Assembly: GCF_001425045.1 (NCBI RefSeq)
Contig: NZ_LMDJ01000031.1
Coordinates: 125,768 to 189,767, forward strand
Reading direction: 5' to 3'
Source of the DNA: Massilia sp. Root351
Lineage (GTDB): Bacteria > Pseudomonadota > Gammaproteobacteria > Burkholderiales > Burkholderiaceae_D
Length of the DNA: 64,000 nucleotides
Made by a program: the position numbers and the translations under genes
The notes under the pieces: model-generated
What the model was told of the DNA's origin: nothing
Seen by the model: the letters and a program-made list of their open reading frames with translations, nothing else
The model's database searches: none
Shown: positions 8,655-16,210 of the stretch, piece by piece
Numbering within the stretch: position 1 is the first letter of the stretch
How the letters are laid out: the number at the start of each line of letters is the position of its first letter

Positions 8655-10097
8655 ATGACAACAAAAATACTGCTTTGCCTTACCCTGGGGACGTCCGCCC
8701 CGTCCGCCTGGTCCGCTGCTTCGCCGCGCGAGCTGGAGGCCTTGCTGCCGGGATGGGAATTGTGCCAGGCCGCCAATCTGCGCGACGCCAGCCGCCGGCT
8801 GCGCGGCCGCCGCTTCAGTGTAGGCCTGTTGCTGCTGGATTTCGAGCCGGACGGGGCCGACCCCGGCCCGTTGCTGGCCGGCATGGACGCCTTCCTGCGC
8901 GAACACCACCAGCCGTACTGGATCGCCGTGTGCCACCGCGCGCTGCTGCAGCGCGAGCCGTGCCGCCAGCTGGTGCGCGAACACTGCAGCGATTTCCACA
9001 CCTGGCCGCTGGATGGCGCCCGCCTGCAGCACACGCTGGGTCACGCGCTCGGCCTGGCTGCGCTGCGGGCCGCACCTTTGCCGGCGCCCGAGCCGGCGCA
9101 AGGCGGCCAGGCGCTTGCCGGCGCGGCGGCGGGCGCCTGGTCCGGGCCGTCCGGGCGCAGCCGGCTGATCGGCCACGCCCCCGCCATGCGGCGCCTGCAG
9201 GGCCAGATTGCGCGCGTGGCCCCGGCCGATGCGGCCGTGCTGATCTGGGGCGAGAGCGGTACCGGCAAGGAACTGGTGGCGCATGCCATACACGCCCGCT
9301 CCGGTGCGGCGGCCGGGCCCTTCGTGGCGGTCAATTGCGCCGCCATTGCACCCAGCCTGGCGCAGTCCGAGCTGTTCGGCTATGTGCGCGGCGCCTTTAC
9401 CGGCGCGGCGCAAGACCGGCGCGGGCTGCTGGAATCGGCCGACGGCGGCACCATTTTCCTGGACGAGATAGGCGACCTGCCGCTGGAGCTGCAAGCCAAT
9501 CTGTTGCGCTTCCTGCAAGAAAAGTGCGTGCTGCGCGTGGGCGGCACGCGCAGCGTGCCGGTCAATGCGCGCGTGGTCGCCGCCTCGCACGTTGACCTCG
9601 AGGCGGCGGTGGCGCGCGGCGCCTTCCGCCAGGATTTGTACTACCGCCTCAATGTGCTGGCGCTGCGCGTGCCGGCGCTGCGCGACCGCAAAGACGACCT
9701 GCCGCTGCTGGCTGAACATTTCTTCGAACAGTACGCCGCCGAGCGCGCGCCACGCATCCGGGGTTACAGCGCGGCCGCCCTGGCGGCCATGCGGCGCTAC
9801 GACTGGCCCGGCAATGTGCGCGAGCTGATCAACCGCATCCGGCGCGCGCTGATCATGGCAGAAGGCAAGCTGATCCAGCCAGCCGATCTTGGCCTGGACG
9901 GCGAGGCCGCGCCGGAGGGCTGCGAGCCGCTGGGAGGGGTGCGCGTGCGTGCCGAGCGGCAAGCCATCGAACTTGGCCTCGGCCTGGGCAAAAGCATGAC
10001 CCAGGTGGCCGGGGAACTGGGGGTGTCGCGCATGACCTTGTACCGCCTGATGGCCAAGCACGGCATCAGCCACCCGGCGCGCGTGCGCGGCAAATAG
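8655..10097 (+). CDS. Sigma-54-dependent enhancer-binding protein (VpsR-like architecture)
   Basis: 480 residues. The N-terminal third (1-160) is not a classical receiver and recalls the N-terminal module of VpsR-type regulators; its signal is unknown. The AAA+ domain (about 170-400) has Walker A GESGTGKE (199-206), the sigma-54-contacting GAFTGA loop (246-251) intact, and Walker B FLDEIGDL (268-275). A Fis-type helix-turn-helix ends the protein (VAGELGVSRMTLYRLM). The start at 8655 was preferred because the frame upstream overlaps the intergenic promoter region. The gene sits directly before a sigma-54 promoter and the amyloid-like operon, so it is the natural activator of that operon. Confidence 0.88.
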   Translation: MTTKILLCLTLGTSAPSAWSAASPRELEALLPGWELCQAANLRDASRRLRGRRFSVGLLLLDFEPDGADPGPLLAGMDAFLREHHQPYWIAVCHRALLQREPCRQLVREHCSDFHTWPLDGARLQHTLGHALGLAALRAAPLPAPEPAQGGQALAGAAAGAWSGPSGRSRLIGHAPAMRRLQGQIARVAPADAAVLIWGESGTGKELVAHAIHARSGAAAGPFVAVNCAAIAPSLAQSELFGYVRGAFTGAAQDRRGLLESADGGTIFLDEIGDLPLELQANLLRFLQEKCVLRVGGTRSVPVNARVVAASHVDLEAAVARGAFRQDLYYRLNVLALRVPALRDRKDDLPLLAEHFFEQYAAERAPRIRGYSAAALAAMRRYDWPGNVRELINRIRRALIMAEGKLIQPADLGLDGEAAPEGCEPLGGVRVRAERQAIELGLGLGKSMTQVAGELGVSRMTLYRLMAKHGISHPARVRGK

Positions 10098-10117
10098 CCC
10101 GGCCTCCCTCATAGCGT

Positions 10118-10152
10118 CGCGTCCGCCACAAGCGTGTTACACGCGGGACGCG
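10118..10152 (+). other. Nested inverted repeat after the enhancer-binding protein gene
   Basis: An outer dyad CGCGTCC (10118-10124) / GGACGCG (10146-10152) encloses a perfect 13-bp palindrome GCGTGTTACACGC (10132-10144). It lies 20 bp after the stop codon and 150-190 bp before the sigma-54 promoter. It has no T-run, so it may be a protein-binding site or a weak terminator. Confidence 0.35.
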
Positions 10153-10204
10153 GGCGCTGCCCAGCCAGATCAGCTTTCTTTGCCTGAAATCTGCGGCTGA
10201 GCAT

Positions 10205-10220
10205 GTCACGAAGCTGTGAC
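10205..10220 (+). promoter_or_regulatory. Candidate upstream activating sequence (dyad)
   Basis: GTCACGAAGCTGTGAC is a perfect 5-bp dyad with a 6-bp spacer, centred about 93 bp upstream of the -24 element. This is the usual place for an enhancer-binding-protein site. The neighbouring sigma-54 activator is the expected ligand (inference). Confidence 0.4.
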
Positions 10221-10304
10221 GGGTCCGCCGCCATAGCTTCCCCTTTCCTCCGGTGTTCCAGAAATTAGTCTGCGTTATCAAGCACTTGGCGCGCCGCGCC
10301 GGGC

Positions 10305-10320
10305 TGGCATCGCGCTTGCA
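10305..10320 (+). promoter_or_regulatory. Sigma-54 promoter of the amyloid-like operon
   Basis: TGGCATCGCGCTTGCA matches TGGCA(C/T)-N5-TTGCA at every defined base, with GG and GC 10 bp apart. It lies 66 bp before the first ATG of the operon. No comparable sigma-70 promoter was seen in this gap. Confidence 0.75.
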
Positions 10321-10385
10321 AATCAGCCTCTGACCGGGGCCAGTTCCCGGCGCTCTTTAACGTTGAACTTTTAACCTGGTGAGGC

Positions 10386-12098
10386 ATGGAAATGAAGATA
10401 ACATTGCTGGCAACAACCATCGCGATGCTCTGCTGCTCAAGCGCATATGCTCAAAGCGACCCTGAAACCAACGCCGACGCCATGGCGCGCGCCCTGTCCG
10501 ACGCCAAGGCGGCGGCGGACCGCGGCGCCACCGCGACGTCGAATCTGAGCAACGCCTTCAATCGGTCGTCCGCCACGGCGATCAGCCGCCTGAACGGCTC
10601 GGTCAGCGGCAACGCGGTCCACCACATTGGCAACACCGCCGGCAACTGGGGCGGCAGCAATGGCGGCAGCGCGCAAGGCGGCTACGGCGGCAATGCGACG
10701 GGCGGCTCGAACAGCGGGGCGAACGGCGGCAATGGCGCCACCGCGTTCGGCGGCGCAGGCGGCAGCGGCGCCTCGGCCTTCGGCGGCGCCGGCGGCAACG
10801 GCGGTACCGGCGGTACCGCGCAAAATGGCAGCGCCAGTTCCGGCGCGGCCGCCGGCGGCGAAGCCATGGGGGCCAACGGCGGCAACGGCGGCAACGCCAG
10901 CAACGCCAACAGCGGCCGGGCCGGTGACGGCGGCATGGGCGGCTACGGCGGCAACGGCGGCGCGGCGGGCGCCAGCAACGGCGGCTATGGCGGCAATGGC
11001 GGCGCCGGCGGGCTGGCCTCGGGCGGCGCGGGCGGCGCCACCGGTAACGCCAACGGCGGTGCCGGCGGCAATTCGGGCAGCGCCGGTGGCGCGAACGGCG
11101 GCTATGGCGGCGGCACCGGCGCGGCAAGCGGCGGCAACGGCGGCGGCAGCGGCGCGGCAGGCTACGGCGGCGCCGGCGGGGCCAGCGGCTCGGCCTCCAG
11201 CGGCAACGCGTCGGCCCAGCAGACCGCCTACGGCGGCAACGGGCAGGGCGGCGCCGCAGCCAGCACGGCCTCGGCCTCGTCCACCGGCCTGCCGGGCGGC
11301 GGCGGCATGCCGGGCGTCGGCGGCGGCCAGAGTGCCGACGCCACGTCCGGTGCCGGAACCGGCGGCTCGCCCAGCGCCGGCACCAATGGCGCCACGTCGG
11401 GTGCGCCCACCTCGGGCGCGGGCGGCGCGGGCGCGGCCGGCGGCGCGTCCGGTGACGGCGGAGCCGGTGCTGCGGCCAGCAACGCCGGCGGCGCGGCCGG
11501 CGACGGCGGCACCAACACCAGCGGCGGCGGCGGCGCGGGCGCCTCCGCCAGCAACACCGGCGGGGCCGGCGCGGCTGCCACCGGCGGCAATGGCGGCGGC
11601 GGCGCTGCCGGCGGCAACGGCGCCAGCACCGGCGGTGCGGGCGGAGCCGGGGCGGCAGGCGGGGCCGGCGGCACCAGCGGCACGGCCAGCAATACGGGCG
11701 GCGCCGGGGCAGCTGGCGGCGGCGCCACCGGCGGTGCAGGCAGCAGCGGTGCGGCCACCAACGGCAACGCCTCGGCCGGTGACGGCGGCAGCGGTGGCGC
11801 CGGCGGCGGCGGCAATACCGGCGGCGCGGGCGCGGCGGGCGGCGCAGCCAATGGCGGCGCGGGCGGCCAGGGCGGCACGCAGACGGCGGGCAACGCCGCC
11901 GGCGGTGCGGGCGAGGGCGGCAGCGGCGGGCAGGGCGGCAGCAACACCGTCAACGCCGGCACCTTCAACATGTCCAACACCATGAGCAGCGTGGGCCAGT
12001 CGGCTGCCGGCATCATGACCGTGAGCCAGAACAACGGCTTCTCGTCGCTGATCCAGCAGAGCGTCAACGTGCAGGCCAACCTGGCCGTCGGCAGGTAG
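10386..12098 (+). CDS. Large Gly-rich secreted protein, candidate amyloid subunit
   Basis: 570 residues. It has a signal peptide (MEMKITLLATTIAMLCCSSAYA, cut near residue 23) and a short non-repetitive head (to about 85) containing RLNGSVSGN. It then has more than 400 residues of Gly/Ala/Asn/Ser repeats of the GGNGGA, GGYGGN and GGAGAA type (DNA about 10640-11940). The compact C-terminal segment ends VSQNNGFSSLIQQSVNVQ. The repeat looks superficially like mycobacterial PE_PGRS proteins, but the signal peptide and operon differ. The last segment shares a QN-x5-LIQ motif with the next-door gene products. Export through the FapF-like porin encoded downstream is inferred. ATG 10392 is an alternative start. 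Confidence 0.75.
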   Translation: MEMKITLLATTIAMLCCSSAYAQSDPETNADAMARALSDAKAAADRGATATSNLSNAFNRSSATAISRLNGSVSGNAVHHIGNTAGNWGGSNGGSAQGGYGGNATGGSNSGANGGNGATAFGGAGGSGASAFGGAGGNGGTGGTAQNGSASSGAAAGGEAMGANGGNGGNASNANSGRAGDGGMGGYGGNGGAAGASNGGYGGNGGAGGLASGGAGGATGNANGGAGGNSGSAGGANGGYGGGTGAASGGNGGGSGAAGYGGAGGASGSASSGNASAQQTAYGGNGQGGAAASTASASSTGLPGGGGMPGVGGGQSADATSGAGTGGSPSAGTNGATSGAPTSGAGGAGAAGGASGDGGAGAAASNAGGAAGDGGTNTSGGGGAGASASNTGGAGAAATGGNGGGGAAGGNGASTGGAGGAGAAGGAGGTSGTASNTGGAGAAGGGATGGAGSSGAATNGNASAGDGGSGGAGGGGNTGGAGAAGGAANGGAGGQGGTQTAGNAAGGAGEGGSGGQGGSNTVNAGTFNMSNTMSSVGQSAAGIMTVSQNNGFSSLIQQSVNVQANLAVGR

Positions 12099-12100
12099 CG

Positions 12101-12601
12101 ATGGGCAGCGCTGTCAAGCTGGCGGGGGCCTCCACCCTCGCGCTGGCGCTGGCGGCGCCCGTCCTGTCCCAGGCGGGGCAGGACGGTGCGCCGCAGCTTC
12201 GGCCGGCGCCGGCCGCCGAGCAAGCGGCCGGCGTCGCGGGCACCGTTCCGCTCGCGCCGCGCGAGGCCGGTGCGGCCGGCGCCGTGGCCGCAGCGCCGTT
12301 GGGTGCGCCAGCCGGCGCTCCTGCCGGCGCCCCTGCCGGCGCCCCTGCCGGCGCCCCATTCGGCACGCCGCTCGACGACCGCCTGCTGGCGGTGCTGCGA
12401 GGCGGCAGCGACACGCCGTGGAGCGACATCAAGCTGAACGGCGCGGTCAGCGGCAATAGCGCGGTTTCGGTCGCCACGGGCGCCAATCTCATCACGGAAG
12501 GCGCGTTCAGCAGTGCGTCCGGCCTGCCCATGGTGATCCAGAACTCGGGCGCCAATGTGCTGATCCAGAACGCCACCATTGTGAACGTGCAGTTCAAATG
12601 A
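12101..12601 (+). CDS. Small secreted protein, candidate minor amyloid subunit
   Basis: 166 residues with a signal peptide (cleavage near residue 24). An Ala/Pro-rich stretch includes a perfect GAPA tetrapeptide run (residues about 68-86). The C-terminal half carries LNGAVSGNSAV, echoing LNGSVSGN in the Gly-rich protein. It ends VIQNSGANVLIQNATIVNVQ, with the QN-x5-LIQ motif. Starts 2 bp after the Gly-rich gene; its stop overlaps the C39 peptidase start (ATGA). Function is inferred from context: nucleator or minor fibre component. Confidence 0.65.
   Translation: MGSAVKLAGASTLALALAAPVLSQAGQDGAPQLRPAPAAEQAAGVAGTVPLAPREAGAAGAVAAAPLGAPAGAPAGAPAGAPAGAPFGTPLDDRLLAVLRGGSDTPWSDIKLNGAVSGNSAVSVATGANLITEGAFSSASGLPMVIQNSGANVLIQNATIVNVQFK
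12302..12358 (+). repeat. 12-bp tandem repeat coding GAPA
   Basis: Four and three-quarter copies of a 12-bp unit (GGCGCCCCTGCC and near variants) encode Gly-Ala-Pro-Ala. Slippage would change length without shifting frame. Confidence 0.7.
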
Positions 12602-13314
12602 GGACGCTGCGCACAGCCCGGCGCATCAGGGCGTGGCTGGCGCCGGCGGCGGCTGCGCTGCTGGCGCTGTGCCTGCCGGCGCCGTCTTCACTGGCCGCTG
12701 ACCTGGCCGGGGCCGACGGCGCCAGCTATGCGTTGCGTATTTCCAGCCTGAAAGAAGTACGCTTCCGTTCCACCGTGCGCCAGCAGTTCGACTACAGCTG
12801 CGGTTCGGCGGCGGTGGCGACACTGCTGACCTACCATTTCGACCACCCCGTCTCCGAGCAGGCGGCGTTCCAGCAGATGTATCTGCACGGCGACCAGCAG
12901 CGCATCCAGCGCGACGGCTTCTCGCTGCTGGACATCAAACGCTACCTGGCCAGCCTTGGCTACGCGGCGGACGGCTTCGAGCTGCCGCTGGAGAAGCTGG
13001 CCGAGGCCGGTTTGCCCGCCATCGTGCTGGTGGCGGAGCGGGGCTACCACCATTTCGTCGTCGTCAAGGGCGTGGCCGGCGGCCGCGTGCTGCTGGGCGA
13101 TCCGGCCGGCGGCACGCGGGCGCTGCCGCGCCGCCAGTTCGACGCCATCTGGCAGGGCGGCCTGCTGTTCGTGGTGCACGGCAGTCCGGGCACGCCGCGC
13201 TTCAACGCAGCCGCCGACTGGCGGGCCGCGCCGCAGGCGGTGCTGGCCGGCGGCATCGAGCGCGACAGCCTGCTGCGCCAGACCCTGCCCAAGTTGGGCG
13301 ACGGCAATTTTTAA
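12598..13314 (+). CDS. C39 peptidase-family protein, FapD-like
   Basis: 238 residues with a signal peptide, so periplasmic. The papain-like C39 fold is complete: catalytic Cys68 in DYSCGSAAVATLL, His152 in YHHFVVVKG, Asp168 in LLGDPAGG, and the RDGFSLLDIKRYL helix. In Pseudomonas, FapD is the C39 peptidase-like protein of the functional-amyloid operon, and the neighbours here (secreted subunits, FapF-like porin) match that role. It is translationally coupled to the gene before it (ATGA). It has no ABC transporter domain, so it is not a bacteriocin exporter. Confidence 0.85.
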   Translation: MRTLRTARRIRAWLAPAAAALLALCLPAPSSLAADLAGADGASYALRISSLKEVRFRSTVRQQFDYSCGSAAVATLLTYHFDHPVSEQAAFQQMYLHGDQQRIQRDGFSLLDIKRYLASLGYAADGFELPLEKLAEAGLPAIVLVAERGYHHFVVVKGVAGGRVLLGDPAGGTRALPRRQFDAIWQGGLLFVVHGSPGTPRFNAAADWRAAPQAVLAGGIERDSLLRQTLPKLGDGNF

Positions 13315-13324
13315 GGAGTGCGCG

Positions 13325-13795
13325 ATGACCCATCTGCGCTGCATCGCCGCCTTGTGCGGCTGCGTTTTTTCCGCCGGGGCGGCGGGGCTGCCGCCCGGCT
13401 GGACGCCGGTGCCGGACCAGACGCTGGAGGAGCGGCGCGGCGGTTTCGACACCGGCAGCGGCTTGCTGGTTTCGCTGGGCGTCGAGCGGCTGGTGGCCAT
13501 CAACGGCGGCACGGTCGCCAGCAGCCAGTTCCATATCGCCGACCTGGCGCGCATCACACCCGGCGAAGCCTTGCAGGCGCAGGCCGCCATCCAGCCCCTG
13601 CTGGTCCAGAACGGCATGGGCAATGCCGCCCCCGCCGGCGTCCCGGCGTTGTTTATTCAGAACACCGTCAACGATCAACTGATACAGAGCCAGACAACGA
13701 TCAATGCAGCCGTTTCCAGCTTATCTATGCTGACCAGTACCAATTTTGAAAGCAGCATGCGCGTTGCGCTGTCGAGTGCGCTCGCGCCCAGATAA
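13325..13795 (+). CDS. Small secreted protein of the amyloid-like operon (possible FapE counterpart)
   Basis: 156 residues. Signal peptide of about 20 residues, then RRGGFDTGSGLLVSLGVERL, a segment recurrent next to C39 peptidases in related loci as I recall them. The C-terminal half contains LFIQNTVNDQLIQSQTTINA, so it shares the QN-x5-LIQ motif with the two other secreted proteins. An AAGGAG ribosome-binding site precedes ATG 13325. An upstream in-frame extension lies inside the peptidase gene and is rejected. Role unknown: fibre tip, minor subunit or export helper. Confidence 0.65.
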   Translation: MTHLRCIAALCGCVFSAGAAGLPPGWTPVPDQTLEERRGGFDTGSGLLVSLGVERLVAINGGTVASSQFHIADLARITPGEALQAQAAIQPLLVQNGMGNAAPAGVPALFIQNTVNDQLIQSQTTINAAVSSLSMLTSTNFESSMRVALSSALAPR

Positions 13796-13805
13796 GGAGG
13801 AGTGC

Positions 13806-15173
13806 ATGCGCCTTGCAAATGTATTGCGCGCCGGCTCGGCCGGCGTGTCGATGATGGTCTGTATTACGCTGGCCCACGGCCAGACCGCCGCGCCCGGCAC
13901 CGCCGAGCTGGCGCTGGAAATCGAGGCGCTGAAACGGCAACTGGCCGAGCAGCGCGCCCTGCTGCAGCAGTTGCGCCAGCAGATTGCGGGGCAGGCGGGG
14001 CAGCCGCCAGCGCAGCAAATGGCGCAGCAGCCGACGCAGCAAGCGGCGCAGCTGCCGATGCAGCAGCCGATGCAGCAAGCGGCGCAGCCGGCGCCAGGCC
14101 CGCAGCCCGCTCCCAGGCCGCCGGTGGCGCAACAGCCTGCGGTCCCGCAACCCGCAGCGCGCCAGCGTGACGGCGCGCCGCCGGCGGTCGGCCAGGCGCC
14201 GCAGCGCGACGGCCGTCCGCCGGAGGTGGCGCCGCTGTTCGAAGCCCCCGGCGTGCTCACGCCCAAGGGCGGCTACGTGCTGGAACCGTCCTACCAGTTC
14301 GGCTATTCGTCCAGCAACCGGGTGGTGCTGGTCGGCTACACCATTATTCCCGCTTTGCTGATCGGCCTGGTCGACGTGCGCGAAGTCAAGCGCAACACCA
14401 TGACCGCCGCGCTGACCGGCCGCTACGGATTGACTCCGCGCACCGAGCTGGAACTGCGCATTCCCTACGTCTACCGTTCCGATTCCACCGTAAGCCGCGA
14501 AATTTTCACCGGCACGGCGGTGGAAAACGTGTTTGCCACCAGCGGCCGGGGCCGCGGCGATGTGGAACTGGCCGTGCGCCACCAGCTCAACGCCGGCGGT
14601 CCCGACCAGGCCTACTATGTGGCCGGCCTGCGCCTGAAAAGCCGCACCGGGCGCGACCCGTTCGAAGTAGTCACGGACTGCGTGCAGCGCTGCGTCGGCC
14701 CCAACGCCACCGGCACCGGCCTGCCGCTCGACCTGCCCACCGGCTCCGGCTTTTACGGCCTGCAACCCAGTATCACCTGGCTGTACCCGTCCGACCCTGC
14801 CGTGCTGTTCGGCAGCGTCAGCTACCTGCACAATGTGCAGCGCAGCGGCGTGCGCCGCCTGGTGCGCAACGGTGAATTCGAGGACCTAGGCAGGCTGAAA
14901 CCCGGCGGCGTGATCGGCTTCAACTTCGGCATGGGACTGGCGCTGAACGAGAAGACCACCCTCAGCCTTGGCTACAGCCACGACTCCATCGGCCGTACCA
15001 AGCAGAACGGTGTGCCGGTGCCGGGTGCGGTGCGCACCCAGCTTGGCACCTTGCTGATGGGCTTTTCCTATCGGCTCAGCGATAAGCGCGCGCTCAACGT
15101 CTCGGTGGGCGCCGGCCTCACGCGGGACACGCCCGATGTGACCCTGTCGGTGCGCTACCCGGTCAGTTTCTGA
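13806..15173 (+). CDS. FapF-like outer-membrane export porin
   Basis: 455 residues. Signal peptide to about 26, then a heptad-rich coiled coil (ALEIEALKRQLAEQRALLQQ, about 35-62), a Gln/Pro-rich linker (about 63-140) and a C-terminal beta-barrel (about 150-455). The barrel shows alternating aromatic and polar strands (LEPSYQFGYSS, LTGRYGLTPRTELELRIPYV) and ends in ..VRYPVSF. The coiled-coil plus barrel layout is that of FapF, the gated porin that secretes Fap amyloid subunits. A strong AGGAGG precedes the start. It is the last gene of the operon. Two Cys in TDCVQRCVG could form a loop disulfide. Confidence 0.8.
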   Translation: MRLANVLRAGSAGVSMMVCITLAHGQTAAPGTAELALEIEALKRQLAEQRALLQQLRQQIAGQAGQPPAQQMAQQPTQQAAQLPMQQPMQQAAQPAPGPQPAPRPPVAQQPAVPQPAARQRDGAPPAVGQAPQRDGRPPEVAPLFEAPGVLTPKGGYVLEPSYQFGYSSSNRVVLVGYTIIPALLIGLVDVREVKRNTMTAALTGRYGLTPRTELELRIPYVYRSDSTVSREIFTGTAVENVFATSGRGRGDVELAVRHQLNAGGPDQAYYVAGLRLKSRTGRDPFEVVTDCVQRCVGPNATGTGLPLDLPTGSGFYGLQPSITWLYPSDPAVLFGSVSYLHNVQRSGVRRLVRNGEFEDLGRLKPGGVIGFNFGMGLALNEKTTLSLGYSHDSIGRTKQNGVPVPGAVRTQLGTLLMGFSYRLSDKRALNVSVGAGLTRDTPDVTLSVRYPVSF

Positions 15174-15180
15174 GCGCCGT

Positions 15181-15235
15181 TGTTGCTGTTGCACACGTAT
15201 CGTATTTTTACGATATGATGTGCAATTCAACAACA
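15181..15235. promoter_or_regulatory. Long imperfect palindrome before the MBL hydrolase gene
   Basis: Nested dyads: TATCGTA (15198-15204) / TACGATA (15209-15215) around TTTT, then TTGCACA / TGTGCAA, then TGTTG (15181) / CAACA (15235). It overlaps a possible promoter (TTGCAC at 15189, TATGAT at 15214) and lies 19 bp before the start. It may be a repressor operator, or a terminator hairpin for the upstream operon. Confidence 0.45.
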
Positions 15236-15253
15236 TTCATCGAAAGAGCCACC

Positions 15254-16210
15254 ATGAATTCTCGTCGCATTCCCGCCGCCGTGGCCGTCGCCATTGCCGC
15301 CATCCTGGGCCAGGCGCCCGCGTTCGCCGCCGCGCCGCTGGCCAAGAGCCAGGCCCCCGGCTACTACCGCATGATGCTGGGCGACTTCGAAGTGACCGCG
15401 CTGAACGACGGCACGGTGGACCTGCCGGTCGACAAGCTGCTGCACGACAAGCCGGCCAAGACCAACCAGGCGCTCAGCAAGTCCTTCCTGAAAGCACCGC
15501 TGGAAACCTCGGTGAACGGCTACCTGGTCAACACCGGCAGCAAGCTGGTGCTGATCGACACTGGCGCGGCCGGCCTGTTCGGCCCCACCCTGGGCAAGCT
15601 GCTGGCCAACCTGAAAGCGTCCGGCTACCAGCCGGAGCAGGTCGATGAAATCTATATCACCCATTTGCATCCGGACCATGTGGGCGGTGCGGCGGCCGCC
15701 GGCAAGGCGGCTTTCCCGAACGCGGTGCTGCGCGCGGACAAGCACGACACCGATTTCTGGCTGAGCAAAGTGAACCTGGAGAAAGCGCCGGCCGACAAGA
15801 AGGGTTTCTTCCAGGGCGCGATGGCGTCGGTGTCGCCTTACAGCGACGCGGGCAAGCTGAACCCGTTTGAAGGCAATACCGAGCTGGTGCCGGGCATCAA
15901 GGCCGTGACCCGCTACGGCCACACGCCGGGCCACACCACCTATGTGGTGGAAAGCCAGGGTCAGAAGCTGGTGCTGCTGGGCGACCTGCTGCACGTGCAG
16001 GCCGTGCAGTTTGACGATCCATCGGTGACCATCGACTTTGACAGCGACAGCAAAGCCGCGCTGGCCCAGCGCAAGCTGGTGTTCGCGGAGGCGGCCAAGC
16101 AAGGCTACCTGGTCGCGGCGTCCCACCTGCAATTCCCGGGCATCGGCCACATCCGCAGCCAGGGCAAGGGTTACCAGTTCGTGCCGGTGAACTACACTAT
16201 TCCGCGCTGA
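15254..16210 (+). CDS. Secreted metallo-beta-lactamase-fold hydrolase
   Basis: 318 residues with a signal peptide (MNSRRIPAAVAVAIAAILGQ, cut near 29), so periplasmic. The zinc motif THLHPDHVGG, the VNGYLVNTGSKLVLIDTGAA strand and the YGHTPGHTTY and LLGDLLH blocks mark the MBL fold. The layout is closest to quorum-quenching or esterase-like MBL proteins rather than true beta-lactamases; the substrate is unknown. Start 15254 is followed by an ideal signal peptide; the upstream GAAAGAG serves as ribosome-binding site. A palindrome just upstream suggests specific control. Confidence 0.85.
   Translation: MNSRRIPAAVAVAIAAILGQAPAFAAAPLAKSQAPGYYRMMLGDFEVTALNDGTVDLPVDKLLHDKPAKTNQALSKSFLKAPLETSVNGYLVNTGSKLVLIDTGAAGLFGPTLGKLLANLKASGYQPEQVDEIYITHLHPDHVGGAAAAGKAAFPNAVLRADKHDTDFWLSKVNLEKAPADKKGFFQGAMASVSPYSDAGKLNPFEGNTELVPGIKAVTRYGHTPGHTTYVVESQGQKLVLLGDLLHVQAVQFDDPSVTIDFDSDSKAALAQRKLVFAEAAKQGYLVAASHLQFPGIGHIRSQGKGYQFVPVNYTIPR

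Follow-up and report, generated by a model that had tools for sequence, protein, structure and literature searches.

Why do three proteins of one operon, all apparently secreted, carry the same short motif, QN-x5-LIQ, in their C-terminal regions? The question is raised by a stretch of 64,000 nucleotides (nt) of Massilia sp. Root351 (contig NZ_LMDJ01000031.1, positions 125,768-189,767, forward strand; hereafter the window), in which the motif occurs in a glycine (Gly)-rich protein, in a small protein encoded from position 12101 (the 12101 product) and in a FapE-like protein encoded from position 13325 (the 13325 product). We consider it probable that the operon encodes a sister system of Fap, which makes functional amyloid, and that its three exported proteins each carry one copy of an asparagine/glutamine (Asn/Gln, N/Q) repeat; the C-terminal repeat would probably be common to them because they are subunits of a Fap relative. 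No description of this operon was found among the literature listings searched.

Among the six-frame, stop-to-stop open reading frames (ORFs) of at least 100 amino acids (aa) in the window, which total 80,521 residues, QN-x5-LIQ occurs three times, and since all three matches fall in these genes (QNNGFSSLIQ, QNSGANVLIQ and QNTVNDQLIQ), chance is not accepted as the cause. The first-pass annotation, made from the sequence, had noticed this likeness as well as LNG-x-V-SGN common to the Gly-rich and 12101 products, and both are confirmed; the LNG-x-V parts lie at 10590-10604 and 12434-12448, and the 13325 product has INGGTV at 13499-13516, matching the same place in a profile alignment. We read QN-x5-LIQ as the C-terminal half of a longer N/Q repeat unit of roughly 45 residues, apparently present once in each exported protein. 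The three proteins and their relevant features are as follows.

10386..12098, forward strand: Gly-rich protein, 570 aa, proposed major subunit with a FapC-like role
10590..10613, forward strand: LNGSVSGN, probably the module's N-terminal half, preceding the Gly-rich domain
12027..12056, forward strand: QNNGFSSLIQ, the module's C-terminal half in the Gly-rich protein
12101..12601, forward strand: 12101 product, small protein of 166 aa, proposed FapB-like role
12371..12406, forward strand: LDDRLLAVLRGG, double-glycine leader of the 12101 product, behind which C39 is predicted to cut
12539..12568, forward strand: QNSGANVLIQ in the 12101 product
13325..13795, forward strand: 13325 product, FapE-like by profile similarity to FapE
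13409..13444, forward strand: VPDQTLEERRGG, double-glycine leader of the 13325 product, with Arg at -4
13658..13687, forward strand: QNTVNDQLIQ in the 13325 product

Profile-profile comparisons, controlled throughout by column-shuffled profiles (40 to 300 shuffles per comparison), indicate that the likeness extends beyond the motif. The 12101 family and the C-terminus of the Gly-rich protein score 31.1, which none of 300 shuffles reached (best 23.0; 0/60 in an earlier run), and the C-terminal parts of the 12101 and 13325 families score 31.3 (0/60). With the leader included, the latter two families score 65.5 over 82 columns (shuffle maximum 18.7 of 40) and align in three ordered blocks, namely L-x-x-x-RGG-x-D, (L/I)NG-x-V, and V-IQNS followed by I and T. 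The statement that the proteins are otherwise unlike thus fails for the 12101 and 13325 products; the Gly-rich and 13325 profiles gave no direct match. In most of the distant relatives the major subunit is without ten extra residues present in the window's protein, and distant major and minor modules score 42.4 over 44 columns (shuffle maximum 18.9 of 150). The distant-module profile combined 14 major and 11 minor modules picked by hand with 20 random 12101-family rows, junk rows being excluded.

The first-pass annotation had proposed asking whether one profile finds the other proteins, and the outcome is partly positive. In whole-genome searches the 12101 family profile also finds the adjacent major subunit in G487, G539, G570 and G321, and a single G345 protein holds two copies in tandem; in the other genomes with a 12101 match it misses the major subunit. 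At E 0.01 the Root351 genome yielded no further copy of the 12101 module, a PDB profile search with the module gave no match at E 10, and a Pfam search with 25 proteins of the 12101 family returned only two single weak matches. At E 1 the Gly-rich protein matches neither Pfam nor NCBIfam. At locus L230, a major-type subunit (481-993) consists of two tandem modules with no low-complexity filler, and a second ORF of the two-module type (3-377) runs off the end of the piece.

Conservation was assessed mainly in 30 loci found via their C39 peptidase or FapF gene, in the choice of which the motif was not used and for which counts refer to profile-assigned rows. A second set of 80 loci, kept from the 561 relatives that one scan of named genomes gave (among them Massilia, Duganella, Pseudoduganella, Rugamonas, Cupriavidus, Ralstonia, Variovorax and Rhodoferax), was picked by a pattern that includes the motif, so motif counts on it are biased. 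In the 30-locus set, 29/29 members of the 12101 family have QN-x5-(L/I/V)IQ, 27/28 Gly-rich-type proteins have a QN-x5-L(V/I)Q-like form, and the FapE-like proteins have QN in 29/29 but LIQ in only 1/29. In the aligned part of the 13325 family no columns are better conserved than this Q and N (92/92 rows), whereas LIR or AIR replaces LIQ in 57/109 rows and LIQ is rare; one protein in that 109-row count was the 12101 protein of locus L169 entered as FapE-like, and its removal corrects LIQ from 5/109 to 4/108. Homologues that keep the proteins and lose the motif, which had been named as grounds for rejecting its significance, were accordingly found for the LIQ of the 13325 family only, where QN is kept. 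Locus L126 of the 30-locus set has no 12101 row, and its FapE-like protein is a weak match (E 0.01) without QN. Inspected by eye, this divergent operon (L126:9379-12457) contains a Gly-rich protein, a C39 peptidase and a FapE-like protein but no QN, and an LRGR leader and a Fap-like N/G-rich stretch are present in the small protein; the operon is perhaps an intermediate.

The constant part of the major subunit appears to be the module. In the window and in most close relatives showing the pattern, the Gly-rich part lies between LNGSVSGN and the C-terminal half of the module, and in L125, L231 and L233 an Asn/Asp/Ser-rich part is N-terminal to an unbroken module (by eye). Glycine makes up 23-35% of 26/28 Gly-rich-type proteins (some cut by contig ends), yet only 9% in L122 and 6% in L125, where Asn and Asp together reach 23% and 30%, respectively. 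Because such major subunits are not Gly-rich and still keep the module, the module and not glycine is the constant part. At L125 (2-4367), the genes for the small protein, the C39 peptidase and the FapE-like protein are tandemly duplicated around an Asn/Asp/Ser-rich subunit.

The first-pass annotation had also offered the motif as an export tag read by the C39/porin pair, which is not supported for the C39 peptidase. A separate leader fits that role better. Gly-rich-type proteins have the QN motif and no leader pattern (0/68; L-x3-RGG anywhere in 1/68), and the C39 tag is probably a double-glycine leader ending in RGG in the 12101 and 13325 products. C39 leaders generally have hydrophobic residues at -12, -7 and -4 and GG at -2 and -1. 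All of these positions are matched by LDDRLLAVLRGG of the 12101 product, and VPDQTLEERRGG of the 13325 product departs from them by its Arg at -4. An anchored L-x3-RGG-type site occurs in 88/93 rows of the 12101 family and 81/93 FapE-like rows (the anchor was not found in 5/93 and 12/93, and leader counts cover the rows in which it was found). The residue at -12 is hydrophobic in 77% and 88%, respectively, -7 and RGG being fixed by the anchor. The predicted mature 12101 product after RGG has a median of 64 residues (range 62-70, n=86) and corresponds to the conserved module, and the segment before RGG is poorly conserved.

A related site is found in Fap itself. The pattern (L/I)-x-D-x-x-(L/M)-x3-(R/H)-G-(K/R), exemplified by LKDQELAQLRGK, stands in or near the aligned place in 14/14 FapE proteins (L109-L121 and L077), against a background of 3/5228 other ORFs for the strict pattern; as it was written after viewing FapE sequences, this count describes conservation and is not a blind test. 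Of the 19 matches to the pattern in the 652 ORFs of the 14 Fap loci, 15 are FapE (one being a second copy in L118, assigned by position). This near double-glycine leader may be the FapD site. Passages of Rouse and colleagues (PMC5557850) report that the FapD cysteine is essential for FapC secretion, term the FapD target unclear, and describe peptides of the FapE N-terminus as absent in mass spectrometry. By eye, FapA of L109 and L111 has an L-S-D-x-D stretch followed by SG.

The remaining parts of the operon, from which its relation to Fap can be judged, are listed below.

8655..10097, forward strand: sigma54-dependent activator with a VpsR-type N-terminal domain (Pfam Sigma54_activat 1.3e-67, VpsR 6.7e-12)
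9390-9407, forward strand: GAFTGA of the sigma54 activator
10305..10320, forward strand: sigma54-type -24/-12 promoter-like site TGGCATCGCGCTTGCA, upstream of the Gly-rich gene
12598..13314, forward strand: C39 peptidase, FapD-like (PF03412, 5.5e-21)
13806..15173, forward strand: FapF-like outer-membrane transporter with a coiled-coil-like N-terminus, by eye (NF058560, PDB 5o67)

The transporter is of the FapF type (NF058560 9.8e-43 over 27-455; PDB 5o67 FapF 1.8e-28) and falls outside the curated equivalog, with 146.5 bits against a cut-off of 700. The C39 peptidase has a signal-like N-terminus (signal peptides were assessed by eye) and all of the Cys68, His and Asp motifs, and scores below the cut-off of the FapD model (NF058616 5.9e-37, 127.1 bits against 330). 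No match at E 1 to the NCBIfam models of FapA, FapB, FapC and FapE was found among the six operon proteins of the window; the Fap subunit models do recognise a Fap control. When 73 C39 proteins were placed in one tree, the 36 of this type (a sample), the 14 from Fap loci and the 23 from Fil-like loci each fell on one side of a branch, with supports of 99/94, 100/99 and 100/99; the tree is unrooted and has long branches, that of L126 being the longest. The Fil clade was named from proteins of L136, the best matches of which are Fil models at scores under the cut-offs. Only one C39 match was seen in the Root351 genome. Judged by these similarities, the operon is a sister of Fap and not Fap.

The 13325 family profile scores 35.05 against FapE, the likeness lying at the leader site and 40 shuffles reaching at most 20.8, and the 12101 family has no clear match to FapE (13.4, with 10/60 shuffles as high; 18.94 against a shuffle maximum of 18.9). 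FapB and FapC have three imperfect repeats of 38-39 residues; here each protein has one module, remotely linked to those repeats by profile. With its distant relatives, the module scores 22.3 against the FapB repeats and 20.3 against FapB and FapC together (0/150 shuffles each), and the alignment with FapB is in one register and nearly gapless, placing QNSG on Q-x-A-G of FapB. FapE (8 sequences) itself carries the FapB/FapC repeat (30.0, 0/300 shuffles), in line with a passage in PMC5557850 noting repeat-like sequences in its C-terminus. As FapB, FapC and FapE share a repeat of their own, the exported proteins share one repeat in both systems, and common descent of this module and the Fap repeats is likely on these alignments, though not proven. 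The first-pass comparison of the N/Q-bearing unit with amyloid subunit repeats is thereby upheld by the in-register match to FapB, the tandem copies in L230 and the parallel in Fap.

The operon is conserved; its order in the window is sigma54 activator, Gly-rich protein, 12101 product, C39 peptidase, 13325 product and FapF-like barrel. Homologues of the last five occur together in 22/22 loci with the top C39 matches, with the FapF gene on the opposite strand in L059 and L060. A homologue of the activator is present at 19 of these 22 loci, and the remaining three start at a contig end. Across 110 wider loci (some genomes are present twice; 93 distinct C39 proteins among 109), 12101 was found in 109, C39 in 109, FapF in 107 and the FapE-like gene in 108 (109 by profile, the row from L169 being its 12101 protein). 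L169 has 12101 and FapF by profile, without C39 or a separate FapE-like gene, and is possibly a decayed operon; as no C39 was found there, it was excluded from most family counts of the 12101 and FapE-like proteins. The 12101 module is present in 24/300 genomes sampled from the order and 15/398 sampled from the phylum (the Root351 genome included in both). One of the 15, in G106 (locus L238), was judged to be a chance match to an unrelated enzyme.

Scored with the general sigma54 -24/-12 consensus, a site of at least 9/11 lies upstream of the Gly-rich gene in 66/70 loci, and 60-130 nt before its start in 63/70, compared with 1.9% for random stretches of the same loci. Given the neighbouring activator and the conserved promoter-like site, sequence comparison suggests that the two form a closed regulatory unit. 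A VpsR/NtrC-like regulator of the window type also adjoins 10 of 13 Fap operons (L109-L116, L119 and L120); the fap operon itself encodes no regulator according to a passage in a review (PMC6173800). No Rfam match at the gathering score was found in 9900-15400, and no terminator was found in 15100-15330. The shared module, the leaders, the promoter-like site and the conserved operon can thus be read from the DNA and its relatives.

Put together, these parts suggest a mechanism in which the VpsR/NtrC-like activator would switch on the sigma54 promoter and all three exported proteins would reach the periplasm by Sec. The periplasmic C39 peptidase would then cut the 12101 and 13325 products after the double-glycine leader, leaving the 12101 product as an essentially bare module of 64 residues, and the proteins would exit through the FapF-like trimer. 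Outside, the modules of the small, FapE-like and Gly-rich proteins might stack as one-layer cross-beta units, in which the small protein would nucleate or cap and the Gly-rich protein would provide the bulk, its low-complexity part forming a loop. The two module halves of the Gly-rich protein might pair with each other across the Gly-rich insert.

Several points weigh against this interpretation. Export, cleavage, stacking, amyloid formation and a role in biofilm are proposed here from sequence. The Gly-rich and 13325 profiles have no direct match (8.9; 51/60 shuffles as high), so that the link between them runs via 12101, and in most genomes with the 12101 module, Root351 included, the 12101 profile misses the neighbouring major subunit. 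Each protein has one module where FapC has three; the 12101 family alone is marginal against the Fap repeats (3/300 and 1/300 shuffles reach its scores), and the module with its relatives is not clear against FapC alone (17.1; 1/150). L126 and L237 keep the operon, yet their FapE-like protein is without QN and the small protein is altered too. Hydrophobic residues occupy position -4 of the leader in only 61% of 12101-family and 36% of FapE-like proteins, and the strict leader pattern is found in only 21/92 and 65/92, respectively. Both AlphaFold2 models are uninformative and too weak for use: the 12101 product (25 rows) has a mean predicted local distance difference test (pLDDT) score of 53.9, with a short helix at 93-99 directly before RGG and two 3-residue strands, and the Gly-rich protein (21 rows) a mean of 37.8.

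Among other explanations, the most probable is that the C-terminal QN module serves as a secretion signal for the FapF-like pore or its N-terminal domain, polymerisation through the module being unnecessary. In favour of it, the module is C-terminal or nearly so in all three proteins and the rest of the major subunit varies freely, both in glycine content and, in L125, L231 and L233, in the N-terminal placing of its low-complexity part. It is nevertheless unlikely, because one L230 protein has two tandem copies and the module is remotely related to the Fap repeats, which form the fibre core by cryo-electron microscopy (as described in part of PMC12392863). Less probable still is a non-amyloid coat, in which a Gly-rich adhesive or polyglycine-helix layer would be capped by the module as a small folded unit; the high glycine of most major subunits and the single module per protein agree with it, but major subunits elsewhere keep the module without being Gly-rich, and the AlphaFold2 model, at useless confidence, has no polyglycine fold. 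Convergence of N/Q-rich strands within one operon, without common descent, is very improbable: the missing direct match between the Gly-rich and 13325 profiles and the poor conservation of LIQ in the 13325 family speak for it, but the 12101 and 13325 families align in ordered blocks with the RGG leader included, and no shuffle reaches the 12101/Gly-rich, 12101/13325 or major/minor scores.

We therefore keep to a Fap sister with one N/Q repeat per exported protein, and tentatively extend it. It is conceivable, if somewhat short of an even chance, that the operon represents a large, unnamed sister group of Fap that builds fibres from one-repeat subunits with exchangeable or in-repeat low-complexity filler, and that the machines of Fap, of this group and of Fil all remove a double-glycine-type leader in the periplasm. 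If so, the long-missing FapD target in Pseudomonas would be the L-x-D-x-E-(L/M)-x-x-L-R-G-(K/R) site of FapE. As two proteins of this sister system have double-glycine leaders, and the place in the FapE-like one aligns with the conserved near-leader of FapE, the open question of the FapD target can now be tested by point mutation. Its members, alike in the repeat and different in the filler, would also form a natural series that helps to separate assembly from decoration.

Compared with known systems, the operon is closest to Fap, with which it has in common a FapF-type pore, a periplasmic C39 peptidase, a FapE-like protein, the D-E-F gene order and several exported proteins with a common N/Q repeat. 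It differs in having no FapA, a separate C39 clade and a Gly-rich or Asn/Asp-rich major subunit, and in its leader, which ends in RGG where FapE has RG(K/R) and which the small subunit also has. According to passages in the Fap literature, fapA is often deleted in Fap (PMC3792158), and FapD and FapF belong to larger families and co-localise in five further phyla.

Bacteriocins and other double-glycine peptides processed by C39 proteases have leaders with hydrophobic residues at -12, -7 and -4 and GG at -2 and -1, a pattern matched in full by the 12101 product and, save for -4, by the 13325 product. The leaders here come after a signal-like N-terminus, and the protease is separate and apparently periplasmic instead of being part of an ATP-binding cassette (ABC) exporter. 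Fil (FilA, FilB and FilC) similarly has a C39 protease adjacent to a FapF-like barrel, whereas it has its own C39 clade and no QN module. In the Fil-type loci L131 and L134-L137, a leader-like stretch that ends in TGQ is seen in proteins encoded near the C39 and FapF-like genes, and the pattern caught it in 4/23 Fil-type loci (L131 by eye); the protein of L136 is DUF6160/FilA-like. In curli, the major and minor subunits CsgA and CsgB share a repeat with conserved Gln and Asn. None of the three exported proteins matches a Pfam family, curlin repeats included, at E 1, and the secretion machinery of curli is different; what the two systems have in common is the concept of a major and a minor subunit built on one repeat.

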